A stretch of 64,000 nucleotides of DNA from an uncultured bacterium (lineage in GTDB: Bacteria; Verrucomicrobiota; Lentisphaeria; Oligosphaerales; Oligosphaeraceae). The DNA is taken from NCBI GenBank assembly GCA_902776645.1, contig CACYQT010000032.1, forward strand, positions 1 to 64,000. The letters are read 5' to 3'. Of this stretch, positions 57,630-62,535 are shown piece by piece (the stretch's first letter is position 1; every line of letters begins with the position of its first letter). The notes under the pieces are model-generated. The model saw only the letters and a list, made by a program, of their open reading frames with translations, did not search any database and was not told where the DNA came from. The position numbers and the translations under genes are program-made.

Positions 57630-59552
57630 TTAGTGCAACATGTTCTGGCCGCCAGTCACAGGAATGGCCTGGCCGGTTTCATAATCCTGCTCCACGCAGT
57701 AGATGATGGCTTTCGCCACATCCGACGGGAAGCAGCCGCGCCGCATCGGAACTTTGTCCATGTAGTATTTGCGGACGTCTTCGACGCTCTTCGCGCCCGG
57801 AACCTTTCCGGCCTTCCAGTACTGCACGAACAGACCTTTCACAGGATCGCTCCACAACGGGCCGTCCAGATAATTGCCCGGGCAGACGCTGTTCACTTTG
57901 ATATGGTCCTCAACCAATTCTTTCGCAAAGCTTTGCGTGAGACCGATGGAGCCGAACTTGGAGCCGGCGTACGCGCCGTTCTTGTTGCTGCCCTCCAGAC
58001 CGGACTTCGAATTGACCTGCACGATGTCCGTCCAGCGGCCTTCGCCGTCTACGATCTGCTTCGCCATCAGCCGCGCGGCATGCTTGCAGCAGAGGAAATA
58101 ACCTGTGTAGTTGATGTTCGTGACGAACGTCCAGTCTTTCAGCGTCAGCTCCTTGACGGAACCGGAACGGACGACGCCGGCGTTGGAGACGAACAGGTCG
58201 ATGCCGCCGACTTCGCGGGCGATCGTGTTGACCATGGCCTCCACGGATTCTTCATCCGACACGTTGACGCCGACGGCGAACGCACGCTTCGCGCCATACT
58301 TCTTGCAAAGCTCTTCGGCCGTGGCCTGAGCGCCTTCCAGATTCAAATCCGCCACGACGATGATGCCGCCGTTCTCCGCCAGATATTCCGCGATTCCAAG
58401 GCCGAAGCCCTGTGCGCCGCCGGTCACGACGCAGATGCGGTTCTGCAAACGGCCGCCCGCCGCGCCTTTGAGGCTGACGCTGCGGCGATAGGATTCGACT
58501 TCCCAGTTCTCAATGAATTTATATTGTTTTTCCGTCAGGAAGTTGGGGCCGCCGAAAGCGTCCGTCAATTTCTGGCAGAGAAGCGCGTTCTCCAACGCGA
58601 TGGCCACGGCGTCCGCGTCCTTCGGCGTGTCGCCCGTCACGAAAAGTCCTTTGTCCTTTACGCACAGGACTTTCGGAGCATAGCCATATTTCGCCTTGAA
58701 GGCTTCGAAACTGGCCTTCGAGCCATCGCCGACGTATGCGAACGATTTGGCGTAGACCACATGGTCGGGCGTCAATGGACCGCCGTACGGCAGGGCGTTG
58801 CCCACGCACCGGACAACGGGGCGGACGCCATCGGCGTTGGCGAGCAGCTGGCGGAGGACGGGAGCGGATTCGAAGACGTCTTCATCCTTGGCTTCCGCCA
58901 ACTTAGGTGCCGTGATGGTGATTTTCGCCTTCTTGTATTCGGCCTTCAGTTTGCTCATCATATCCTTGTACAACGCGTCGATCTCCTTCGGCGTGTCCGC
59001 GGAGACGAACACGCCGTGGTTCTGCAGGAAGAAGACGTTCGGCTGCTTGCCGGTCTTGGCCTTGACAGCGTCCAGCTGCTTCTTCACGAAGAACGAAAGC
59101 GTGCAGCCCGGATCCGTGTACTCAATCCACAACGCTTTGGGGAAGAGTTTCTTGCAGATTTTTTCGCCTTTCTTGGCGCAGGTCATGCCGTTGACAAGAG
59201 CAGGATGGAGATGGACGACATACGTGTAGTCGATGACGCCGTGCAACGGCGTCTCGACGGACGGACGGCCCGCCCCAAGCGGACGAACGGAGGACTCCAG
59301 GATGAATTTGGCCACGGCTTCCCGCGCCGTCACATCCGGCGGCATTTCCAGCGTGAACAGGCGGTTCAACGCTTCGCGGTCGATGCAGAGGAACTGCTCC
59401 GGCTGGATCGTCGCCAACGCGACGCCGCTCGGCTTGATGTAAAGCTCTTTCTCGTTCTTCACGGATGTGTTGCCGCCACCAAGAAATACATAGTTCGGGT
59501 CCGAGCCGTATTTCTGGGACAAGGCTGCGATGTTCTTCAGTTTCGTTTCCAT
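57630..59552 (-). CDS. Class II aldolase / short-chain dehydrogenase fusion (RhaD-like)
   Basis: A 640-residue fusion from the ATG at 59552 (AAGGAAACACC before it). The N-terminal aldolase domain has FLGGGNTSVK and VVHLHPALVNGM (His-x-His zinc ligands); the C-terminal SDR domain has VTGGAQGFGLGIAEYL (NAD binding) and the active-site YAGSK after a VNSKSGL segment. The family splits rhamnulose-1-phosphate or related sugar phosphates into dihydroxyacetone phosphate and lactaldehyde and then oxidises or reduces the aldehyde. It fits rhamnose or fucose use, but no kinase or isomerase is next to it. Confidence 0.85.
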   Translation of the reverse strand: METKLKNIAALSQKYGSDPNYVFLGGGNTSVKNEKELYIKPSGVALATIQPEQFLCIDREALNRLFTLEMPPDVTAREAVAKFILESSVRPLGAGRPSVETPLHGVIDYTYVVHLHPALVNGMTCAKKGEKICKKLFPKALWIEYTDPGCTLSFFVKKQLDAVKAKTGKQPNVFFLQNHGVFVSADTPKEIDALYKDMMSKLKAEYKKAKITITAPKLAEAKDEDVFESAPVLRQLLANADGVRPVVRCVGNALPYGGPLTPDHVVYAKSFAYVGDGSKASFEAFKAKYGYAPKVLCVKDKGLFVTGDTPKDADAVAIALENALLCQKLTDAFGGPNFLTEKQYKFIENWEVESYRRSVSLKGAAGGRLQNRICVVTGGAQGFGLGIAEYLAENGGIIVVADLNLEGAQATAEELCKKYGAKRAFAVGVNVSDEESVEAMVNTIAREVGGIDLFVSNAGVVRSGSVKELTLKDWTFVTNINYTGYFLCCKHAARLMAKQIVDGEGRWTDIVQVNSKSGLEGSNKNGAYAGSKFGSIGLTQSFAKELVEDHIKVNSVCPGNYLDGPLWSDPVKGLFVQYWKAGKVPGAKSVEDVRKYYMDKVPMRRGCFPSDVAKAIIYCVEQDYETGQAIPVTGGQNMLH

Positions 59553-59632
59553 GGTGTTTCCTTCATTTGGTTTGCCCGCAAGTGGCGTTCGGGTCATGTA
59601 TGAACAATGGAATCAACTATCCTGTACTAATA

Positions 59633-60769
59633 CTAAAGATTGAGACGTGAATATGTCGGCAGATCCAGATTCTCCCCGAAGTATTTTGTCGGATCCTTGG
59701 CACTGAAGATGCCCAGATCGTCCTCCTTGAACACAAACACCATCTGGCCGTCGGATGCCTTCGGTTTCCGTCCGCCCTTCTTGCGCGGAGGCTCCGGATT
59801 CGGCTTCTCCCCTTCTGTTTTCGCTTCCGGCTGCTCGATCGGTTCCGCGGACTCCACGGAACGCAGAAGCGCCGCGACACGGATGCCCTCCTGCAGGGAG
59901 TTGTCGACGCAGATGCAAGGCTCCAGATGAATGGTTTCGTCAAAAACCCCCTTGATCCGTCTCAACGCCTGATGGGCCTGGTCGAGGGATACCTTGGGGG
60001 CGACGCTGAGGATGACCAGCCCCGCATCGACCGCATACGCCTCCTTGGCGCTTTTCAAAAACGGCGACTGCACAAGTTGTTCTATCGCCTCGTCGGCCGC
60101 GTTCGGGCCTCTTCCAAGACCAAAACCCACGGAGCAAATGGAATTCTTCCGCTTGACAAGCCATTCCAGACGGGCCGCATTCGTGTCGGAGACATTCTCC
60201 AACGCGAATGGCCGCGCCACGCCCGCCACCGCTTCCGCAAACCATTTCGTCGCGCGTTCGTAGGCTTCCTTCACATCCAGCTTGCCGGAAATGGTCCGGA
60301 AAAGCGTGTCGTCCGGAATGACGACGCTTGCGTTCGCGAGCCCTTTCAGCGTCTCCATGGCGTCCTCCGCCGCTTTCAATTCCGTTGCGCTTGTGAACTG
60401 CTTGCTCGGCATCCGCGTGAAAACGACGAATGGCACGTTCATCTCCGACGTGACCTGCGCCATTTTTTTGACGGCGTTGATCTCATGTTCGCCGCCCAGT
60501 TTGACCAGAATGAAGGCATAGCTGACGCCTTGAAGGCATCGCCTGTAGTCTTCACGCCATTCGACATCCAGATCAATGCGTTCCGCCTTCGCAAATCGGA
60601 AACTGGAAAGCGACACACGTTTGTCCGCCAGAACGGGCCGGAGCCCCGGCATGCCGTAGTCCTTCGCGATGGCGACGACGGCCTTGCAGCCACCTTCGCC
60701 GACGCCGACCATCAGCATGTTCGCCTGTTCGTAACTGTTTTCAAATTCCTGATCGATATCGTAATCCAT
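59633..60769 (-). CDS. ftsZ: Divergent FtsZ-like protein lacking the tubulin GTP-binding signature
   Basis: A 378-residue protein directly after ftsA. FtsZ landmarks: NMLMVGVGEGGCKAV (17-31, the first nucleotide-binding loop), FVVFTRMP (114-121; FtsZ VVT.PF), ASVVIPDD (FtsZ livIpND), GFGLGRGPNAADEAIEQLVQSPFL (FtsZ GiG.a.GenRa.eAa..AisspLL), and a C-terminal FGENLDLPTYSRLNL that copies the FtsZ conserved tail that binds FtsA. The tubulin signature GGGTGTG is replaced by LGGEHEIN (91-98), so GTP hydrolysis as in normal FtsZ is unlikely. A Pro-, Lys- and Glu-rich linker precedes the tail. I cannot say whether another FtsZ exists in the genome. Confidence 0.72.
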   Translation of the reverse strand: MDYDIDQEFENSYEQANMLMVGVGEGGCKAVVAIAKDYGMPGLRPVLADKRVSLSSFRFAKAERIDLDVEWREDYRRCLQGVSYAFILVKLGGEHEINAVKKMAQVTSEMNVPFVVFTRMPSKQFTSATELKAAEDAMETLKGLANASVVIPDDTLFRTISGKLDVKEAYERATKWFAEAVAGVARPFALENVSDTNAARLEWLVKRKNSICSVGFGLGRGPNAADEAIEQLVQSPFLKSAKEAYAVDAGLVILSVAPKVSLDQAHQALRRIKGVFDETIHLEPCICVDNSLQEGIRVAALLRSVESAEPIEQPEAKTEGEKPNPEPPRKKGGRKPKASDGQMVFVFKEDDLGIFSAKDPTKYFGENLDLPTYSRLNL

Positions 60770-60816: not shown

Positions 60817-62076
60817 TTACCAATTAAGCATGTTTATGATAAAATTCCTGAATTTTCCAGCGGTGTCATGCGGATGATTTTGAATTTCAATATCATAGCT
60901 CTGCTTCCCGTATCTGGCGAGCCCCAACGGCACAAGCGCGGACGGTGAATCCACGACATCTGAACGCCCCTCGGCGCCGTATGTCCGCGCAATGGCCACG
61001 GGACGGTTGAAGACATCGCCCGCAAGCTCCGAGATTTTCGGTATCCGCGCGCCGCCGCCGCATATCATGACGCCCCCCGTGGCCCACTGCCATGCGTCTT
61101 CATCTTTGATTTTCTTGTTGATGATATTGAAAAGCTCCTGGAAACGGAGCTGCACGATCTGCTCAACCCGCAACGCGGGAATGTTCTCCGTCGAACCGCT
61201 GATGTCCTTTTCCGCCGCGATGTAGCGGCGGCGACCGTCGATTTCCGGCATGACGGAGCATTGCAGATTCCCGAAATCGCGCAGAATCTTGCGCGTCGAA
61301 TTGATCGGAAGACGGAAGTTTATGGCGAGATCGTTCGCCGCATGGTCGCAACCGACCGTGATCTGCCCCATCGTGAAGAAATCGCGCCCCGTATAGAGGA
61401 CGTACGACGTGACGCCCGCCCCGATGTCGATGAGCAGGCATCCCTCCGCCTGGACGCCGCTCTGCCGTTTGAAGGCCGCGAACGCCAAGGCGAAAGGCGT
61501 GTAGGCGACCGCGTTCGGAGGCCCGTCGATGACATCGGCGGCGATAGACGCATACGCCTCCAGATACCGCCGTTGGAAGACAATGGACTCGTTCTGTACC
61601 TGGACACATGTCGAATAGCTGCCAACGGGAGGCGAAAGAAGGATCTCGTCTTTGTCAAGGCGGTAGAAACGCGTATATTCACCGTCCACGATCTGCGAAT
61701 CGTCTTTCGGTGTATAGATCGCCTGCCGCGCCGCCGCGATGATATGCTCCTCCGTGATCTGCATGCTCCCGTTCTCGAACGTGATCGTGCCCTCCGTCCG
61801 GACAAGATTGACAAAACGACCGCCGACCGATAGCGTCACAAATGTCTCCGAAATAGGAGTTTGCGCTTCAGTCTCCGCCTGTCTCACGGCTCGCGTGAGC
61901 TGCTGGCAGACAAAGTCGCGGTCTTTCACCTCCCCCTTGATGACTTTGATGGACGGCGCCTCCCCCCAGCCCAGAAGCGTGACGCCGTAGTCGTCCGCCA
62001 CGGAACAGATGGCGACTTTGATCGTCGCCGTGCCGATTTCGATGCCCGTGTAGATTGCCTGTGAATGACTCGCCAT
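60817..62076 (-). CDS. ftsA: Cell division protein FtsA
   Basis: A 419-residue actin-like ATPase from the ATG at 62076, which follows AGGGGAGG. Phosphate-1 loop IYTGIEIGTATIKVAIC, the SHS2/1C domain (ETFVTLSVGGRFVNLVRTEG), phosphate-2 LLIDIGAGVTSYVLYTG, the adenosine motif GVMICGGGARIPKISELA and a C-terminal amphipathic end (KFRNFIINMLNW) that would hold it to the membrane. It tethers FtsZ filaments. The order ftsA-ftsZ is that of the dcw cluster, but ftsQ and the mur genes are not upstream. Confidence 0.9.
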   Translation of the reverse strand: MASHSQAIYTGIEIGTATIKVAICSVADDYGVTLLGWGEAPSIKVIKGEVKDRDFVCQQLTRAVRQAETEAQTPISETFVTLSVGGRFVNLVRTEGTITFENGSMQITEEHIIAAARQAIYTPKDDSQIVDGEYTRFYRLDKDEILLSPPVGSYSTCVQVQNESIVFQRRYLEAYASIAADVIDGPPNAVAYTPFALAFAAFKRQSGVQAEGCLLIDIGAGVTSYVLYTGRDFFTMGQITVGCDHAANDLAINFRLPINSTRKILRDFGNLQCSVMPEIDGRRRYIAAEKDISGSTENIPALRVEQIVQLRFQELFNIINKKIKDEDAWQWATGGVMICGGGARIPKISELAGDVFNRPVAIARTYGAEGRSDVVDSPSALVPLGLARYGKQSYDIEIQNHPHDTAGKFRNFIINMLNW

Positions 62077-62107
62077 GTTTGGATTTTCCTCCCCTTGTTT
62101 TTTCGAC

Positions 62108-62133
62108 AAAAAAAACCGCAGACAGACGTCTGC
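62108..62133 (-). terminator. Terminator-like hairpin in the ftsA leader
   Basis: GCAGAC/GTCTGC with a 4-nt loop (62118-62133); on the minus strand it is followed by GG and eight T (62115-62108). It lies between the region that must hold the ftsA promoter and the ftsA ribosome binding site, so it could act as an attenuator. The stem is only 6 bp. Confidence 0.45.
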
Positions 62134-62194
62134 TTTCCCGTTTTTTTTAAAACGTAACATCTCAGACGACTATTTTCAAGCTTTCTTTCCTATG

Positions 62195-62223: not shown

Positions 62224-62262
62224 TTTTACCATGAATGGGCAACAGACAACAGGGTGAAGAAC

Positions 62263-62535
62263 ATGAAAAGCGCGTTTGAGTTGGCGATGGAGCGGCTGGG
62301 CGGCGGAAGCCGTCAGTACACGGAGGAACAAAAGGCACAGTTCAATGAAATCGACCGCGAATTCGACGCCCGGCTGGCGCAGATCAAGCTGCAGGCCCAG
62401 TCGGACAGGCTGAAAGTCGCGGATGACGCGGAAAAACTGAAGCAGTTTGAAGACCAGCTGGCGGAGGACATCCGTCGGCTTGAGGCGAAGCGCGAAGACA
62501 AGAAGGAGTCTTTGCGGCGGGAATTTGCAAAATAG
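62263..62535 (+). CDS. Small charged coiled-coil protein, unknown
   Basis: A 90-residue helical protein (MKSAFELAMERLGGGSRQYTEEQKAQF and a long Lys/Glu/Gln/Arg-rich helix to REFAK). No family recognised. The ATG at 62263 follows GGGTGAAGAAC; a GTG at 62254 is in frame. It lies 27 bp before obgE and is probably co-transcribed with it. Confidence 0.65.
   Translation: MKSAFELAMERLGGGSRQYTEEQKAQFNEIDREFDARLAQIKLQAQSDRLKVADDAEKLKQFEDQLAEDIRRLEAKREDKKESLRREFAK

Follow-up and report, generated by a model that had tools for sequence, protein, structure and literature searches.

Division in the Oligosphaeraceae, a family of bacteria from rumen and sludge, probably does not depend on an FtsZ ring powered by GTP, because the sole FtsZ has lost nearly all of its GTP site, many relatives retain only half of the protein, and both the position next to ftsA and the tail are kept. 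Bacterial division is generally taken to be powered by the turnover of GTP by FtsZ. The explanation that we consider likely is that FtsZ in this family is a pseudo-GTPase that now serves as an adaptor bound to FtsA, while FtsA and the wall-synthesis machinery drive division. Orthology, the lost sites, the loss of a domain, purifying selection and the FtsA site were read from sequences and predicted folds, and from these we infer the adaptor role and the lead of FtsA in division.

The window ftsZ, its GTP site and its FtsA partner

The window, the whole 64,000-nucleotide stretch that was analysed, belongs to contig 32 of a 5.01-Mb genome assembled in 164 contigs and 89% complete. Profile searches, a PDB sequence search, a structural model and dN/dS identified in it a degenerate ftsZ ortholog of 378 amino acids on the minus strand (59633..60769), with an ATG start and a good ribosome-binding site (GGGAGGG) ∼10 nt upstream. 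The ftsA gene (60817..62160, minus strand; NCBIfam FtsA, E 1.9e-40) lies in the same operon, with a gap of 47 bp between it and the downstream ftsZ. This agrees with the sequence-only reading, which had placed an FtsZ-like protein beside ftsA and whose open reading frame has exactly these limits.

The protein matched the NCBIfam ftsZ profile (TIGR00065) with an E value of 2.6e-13 and a score of 50 bits, where 295 is required, and Pfam FtsZ_C (E 1.1e-4, residues 214-302) and Pfam Tubulin (E 0.0019) at scores far below the curated cut-offs. A PDB sequence search returned FtsZ chains (best E 3.7e-14). An AlphaFold2 model, built from 22 sequences with no templates, had a pLDDT of 76.8 (mostly >90 in the N-domain) and a pTM of 0.73, and contained both FtsZ domains. 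Its superposition on FtsZ gave a Z score of 34.8 and an rmsd of 2.3 over 282 residues; structure prediction had been proposed earlier as a check, and it returned the FtsZ fold. The C-terminal (activation) domain, recognised by Pfam FtsZ_C and in the model, spans approximately residues 210-306 (59852..60142, minus strand) and is missing in most sister genera. The fold match, the NCBIfam match and the ftsA-ftsZ neighbourhood together identify the protein, on sequence and predicted structure, as a genuine homolog of FtsZ and the true FtsZ ortholog of its lineage. A frameshift of a canonical FtsZ was considered and rejected, because the tail and both domains lie in one frame.

As revealed by alignment, the T1 loop reads GVGEGGCKA (residues 22-30, 60680..60706; canonical GxGGxGxNA), the T4 (tubulin signature) loop reads LGGEHEIN in place of GGGTGTG (residues 91-98, 60476..60499; identical in genomes G002 and G004), and the equivalent of the T7 (synergy) loop reads VSDTNAAR (residues 193-200, 60170..60193), all on the minus strand. 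The catalytic Asp position of T7 (D209, E. coli numbering) is occupied by Asn and D212 by Arg, the NxDxxD motif is absent, and loop T3 is deleted. Neither the GGGTGTG signature nor the canonical set of nucleotide loops T1-T6 was found in the window protein. The sequence-only reading had recorded the T1 and T4 loops as given here, with no GGGTGTG, but it understated the extent of the loss, since T3 and the T7 catalytic Asp are gone as well. We scored 26 nucleotide and T7 positions (loops T1-T7) against one canonical FtsZ from the same phylum. The window protein keeps 5 of the 26, a count in which low identity may shift single alignment columns, although the alignment leaves no doubt about the gap at T3 or the changes in T4 and T7; the column of the H7 Asp, maybe one residue off, was given no weight. 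Canonical relatives in the phylum keep 19-26 of these positions (one partial row aside), and for relatives within the order and class the number is mostly 13-18, GGGTGSG and the first Asp of T7 usually being among what they retain. Judged from the alignment and the model, nearly all of the GTP site is lost in the window FtsZ.

FtsZ filaments are built by docking the nucleotide face of each subunit onto the T7 face of its neighbour, and hydrolysis depends on T7. Since the phosphate-holding residues and the T7 Asp, which serves hydrolysis in the neighbouring subunit, appear to be lost, GTP-dependent protofilaments are not expected of the window protein; the sequence-only reading had not expected polymerisation without the signature loop, and the low count of retained positions, the deleted T3 and the altered T7 point the same way. 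We infer that both GTP turnover and the canonical polymer are absent; the protein could still bind GTP weakly.

The opposite end of the protein is conserved. An extended tail motif, QMVFVFKEDDLGIFSAKDPTKYFGENLDLPTYSR (59642..59746, minus strand), was defined by its invariant residues in 16 family members and ends in a putative core FtsA-binding peptide, ENLDLPTYSR (residues 366-375, 59645-59674, minus strand), recognised at the sequence level. The residues invariant across these 16 proteins are three glycines of T1 and G353, F355, D369, P371 and R375 of the tail. The FtsA-binding type of tail noticed earlier is thus present as written, and its motif is a family feature. The window FtsA matched solved FtsA structures in the PDB sequence search (E 1.1e-22), and its R339 and E342 align on R300 and E303 of the 7q6d sequence, which we take to be E. 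coli FtsA. R300 and E303 of E. coli FtsA are implicated in binding of the FtsZ tail by genetics and by the structure of FtsA with the FtsZ tail. Every FtsA of the family that was aligned retains their equivalents, including the partners of FtsZ proteins that lack a domain. Hence, the FtsZ tail and the FtsA site appear from their sequences to have been retained as a matching pair. The C-terminal tail of the window FtsA looks amphipathic. FtsW/RodA family proteins were found in 29/29 family genomes; MreB family proteins were also found in 29/29, weakly in some incomplete ones, and a strong match was absent in some, including the assembly to which the window belongs.

Domain loss and selection in the Oligosphaeraceae

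The family sample comprised 29 genomes. One of them, a single contig of 5,729,305 bp (5.73 Mb), is that of Oligosphaera ethanolica DSM 24202 (Lentisphaerota, Oligosphaeria, Oligosphaeraceae), an isolate in culture. Two congeners of the window genome match MAGs from water buffalo forestomach. Most genera of the family have a syntenic FtsZ that lacks the C-terminal domain and consists of the N-domain and helix H7, followed by a linker and the FtsA tail. In genera g2, g3, g4, g5, g8, g9, g10 and g12 the open frames encode ∼247-342 amino acids, except for one 371-amino acid frame with an upstream extension and one fragment at a contig end, and the FtsZ match ends after helix H7 and jumps to the tail motif. 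The model of the O. ethanolica FtsZ aligns with FtsZ residues 12-207 only. Genera g1 and g7 keep the C-terminal domain and have lost nucleotide loops, and Oligosphaera (g8) has no C-terminal domain and keeps GGGTGTG in the N-domain, so that it may still bind nucleotide. No full-length FtsZ of the family retains the T7 Asp. A tree built from FtsA and the TubZ-like protein described below is compatible with the C-terminal domain having been lost once or twice.

The ftsA-ftsZ-aldolase/dehydrogenase order extends through most of the family, the genera with truncated FtsZ included. Its markers in the window are a gene for an aldolase/short-chain dehydrogenase fusion (57630..59597, minus strand), which flanks ftsZ in most of the family and lies outside the division machinery, and a small ORF, MKNMKSAFELAMERLGG... 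(62254..62535, plus strand), which is beside ftsA in O. ethanolica too. The O. ethanolica order, small ORF, ftsA, ftsZ, fusion gene, is that of the window. In genus g2, ftsA has been relocated away from ftsZ. The sole split pair seen in the family is that of genome G005 (loci L193 and L073), where the two genes share a contig but are ∼91 kb apart.

Selection on these genes was measured by dN/dS, which was 0.13-0.19 for ftsZ in the window genus, with 0.14-0.19 for the window gene (0.08-0.19 by region of the N-domain), 0.16 in Oligosphaera, and 0.13-0.27 in the family where measurable. The T4 sequence LGGEHEIN is identical in three species at 82% and 75% protein identity, and two further congeneric species have LGSEQDSS and LGSEQESS. 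The identity of this loop in three species and the low dN/dS argue that the odd T4 is more than chance, and the conservation of the N-domain in the window genus implies that this domain has a role beyond holding the tail. A pseudogene or an assembly error was discarded in view of the purifying selection, the intact frames, several independent MAGs and one isolate genome.

A related proposal is that ftsZ is a decaying relic of trivial or no use and that division is FtsZ-free, as in Planctomycetes and Chlamydiae. The stepwise loss across the family would fit it, as would very fast evolution, with FtsZ identity between genera of 20-30%. We nevertheless regard it as improbable, given that the frames are open in every family member found, that selection is purifying throughout the measured range, and that the invariant tail and the ftsA neighbourhood are kept. 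Somewhat less improbable, though still unlikely, is that the window protein still assembles into filaments, either free of nucleotide or bound to some other ligand, using the original interface or a novel one, so that a ring exists without GTP-driven treadmilling. The window genus retains both domains and the fold, and its N-domain is under strong constraint; on the other hand, the T3, T4 and T7 changes tell against such filaments, and in most sister genera the T7 face is missing altogether.

The pseudo-GTPase explanation would account for these observations as follows. An FtsZ ortholog would have become a pseudo-GTPase, keeping the fold and losing the phosphate-holding residues and the T7 Asp. 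Selection would maintain the fold and the long tail motif with its terminal FtsA-binding peptide, and FtsA would maintain the matching site. The most likely job of such a derivative would be that of an adaptor or clamp on filaments of membrane-bound FtsA, an actin-like ATPase. The sequence-only reading had named a GTP-independent scaffold with FtsA as one alternative, which may be correct; FtsA does retain the residues for binding FtsZ. These ATP-dependent FtsA filaments would mark the division site and drive septal wall synthesis of the FtsW/FtsI type. The sister genera would have gone further by deleting the C-terminal domain, leaving the N-domain, helix H7, a flexible linker and the tail. 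More tentatively, and with slightly less than even confidence, we propose that FtsA is the leading filament in the Oligosphaeraceae, the cultured isolate included, and that FtsZ was stripped stepwise, of its GTP chemistry and then of a domain, to an adaptor, so that these living bacteria would stand midway between division driven by FtsZ and division without it.

The search for a second FtsZ and the TubZ-like tubulin

The sequence-only reading had offered, as one of two possibilities, that a second, true FtsZ exists elsewhere and that the window protein modulates it. Such a gene might sit in the unassembled part of the genome, the assembly being 89% complete. No other FtsZ was found in that assembly, where the only further hit was a weak Tubulin match on contig 1. 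In the single-contig O. ethanolica genome there was no FtsZ besides the truncated one, which makes a hidden second copy unlikely; its second tubulin is the equivalent TubZ-like protein. Canonical FtsZ was found in none of the 29 family genomes, so that we give this possibility almost no weight. Three of the 29, all fragmented (G017, G019 and G024), gave no FtsZ match even with a family profile.

The TubZ-like tubulin (∼370 amino acids) has an intact GTP loop, SSTGGGTGNG, and is present in 28/29 family genomes with 46-70% identity. It also occurs in several other families of the class, some of whose members have normal FtsZ loops; among the f14 and f24 genomes listed, none gave a match. Its gene follows a conserved gene for a winged-helix protein of 107-117 amino acids. 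The winged-helix profile had TubR (4asn) as its best match, a weak one (E 0.01), and the tubulin profile matched FtsZ and RepX. A scan of 35 loci detected the winged-helix-tubulin order in 30, and the motif used had no match in the remaining 5. In the window genome the TubZR-like pair is on contig 1 at 76.8-78.2 kb (L122:4761-6229), and pairs were also recorded at L123, L124, L128, L129, L132 and L133. Phased repeats, ACTATACTATACTAT, lie upstream of the TubR-like gene (L122:4461-4512) and are possibly a centromere. TATA-centred repeats in this genome numbered 7 against 0.57 expected (0/200 shuffles); they are enriched in some loci and absent in others. A gene for an Hsp70/actin-fold ATPase (L122:2501-4318) adjoins the TubZ-like gene, and Ser/Thr kinase genes adjoin it at L123 and L124.

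From its sequence and gene context, the second tubulin looks like a chromosomal TubZR-type module rather than a division FtsZ; its TubR-like partner and the lack of an FtsZ-type tail led us to reject it as an FtsZ. A chromosomal type III partition system would be unusual. That this tubulin took over the dynamic role of FtsZ is very unlikely in our view, even though it is found almost throughout the family and is far better conserved than FtsZ. It has no tail for FtsA and accompanies normal FtsZ loops in some relatives, and the winged-helix gene ahead of it and the upstream TATA-centred repeats of several genomes fit DNA partition.

The wider class and known systems

The FtsZ equivalog cut-off was passed by 0/197 class genomes, 11/115 genomes of the phylum sample and 13/14 control genomes. 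FtsZ is thus divergent class-wide; the loss of the signature loop is nevertheless restricted, since most class members keep a T4 loop of the GGGTGSG type. The earlier suggestion of a lineage trait of the Lentisphaerae accordingly holds within the family and fails for most of the class. In genus g33 (G051, G054 and G063, of which G051 was read) the signature loop is also lost. The G051 FtsZ (L080:2750-3820; two-contig genome) has ∼357 amino acids, LDNLERG at the loop and the tail KLKVPTYKRLG. This loss looks independent, because another member of its family (f11) keeps GGGTGSG. Outside the class, an FtsZ of phylum family f30 (G202, L136:3912-5168) has a damaged loop (LGGTTGS) and a normal tail.

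Like canonical bacterial FtsZ (TIGR00065), the window protein has the two-domain fold, the place behind ftsA and the C-terminal FtsA-binding peptide; it differs in the lost GTP and T7 positions and in its low profile score, and the second domain is missing from its sister genera. Regulators of division that resemble FtsZ, such as plant ARC3, are derived from FtsZ, act on division while another protein is the main polymer, and coexist with a true FtsZ. The window family shares the FtsZ origin with them, but no true FtsZ was found in the Oligosphaeraceae.

That Lentisphaera has an odd FtsZ was already noted: a reviewer's remark printed in PMC2474590 calls its homolog non-functional. That homolog is probably the one of genus g33 here. 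It resembles the window protein in its missing signature loop and its class, and as g33 it differs in belonging to a separate lineage with its own replacement loop and length. The passage of the same paper on Methylacidiphilum, of the same superphylum, reports accelerated ftsZ evolution and describes no domain loss; fast evolution is the likeness to the window family, and the difference is that it alone is reported there. A literature search for Oligosphaera with FtsZ returned nothing relevant. What appears to be new is the loss of the domain, the evidence from an isolate genome and the series across the family, with no description in the literature searched, which did not cover Pilhofer 2008.

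According to reviews of the PVC bacteria, Lentisphaerota have kept FtsZ and FtsZ-mediated fission is the ancestral state; the route by which Planctomycetes and Chlamydiae arrived at division without FtsZ has yet to be explained (PMC5147048, PMC12283558). With these FtsZ-less bacteria the Oligosphaeraceae would share a division that is presumably not powered by the FtsZ GTPase; they differ in retaining ftsA and an ftsZ derivative, which looks like an intermediate state. A sole FtsZ that keeps its link to FtsA and lacks the GTPase residues, and in most genera also the polymer-forming half, would supply graded intermediates, and the cultured species of the family lets division independent of FtsZ GTP turnover be tested directly.
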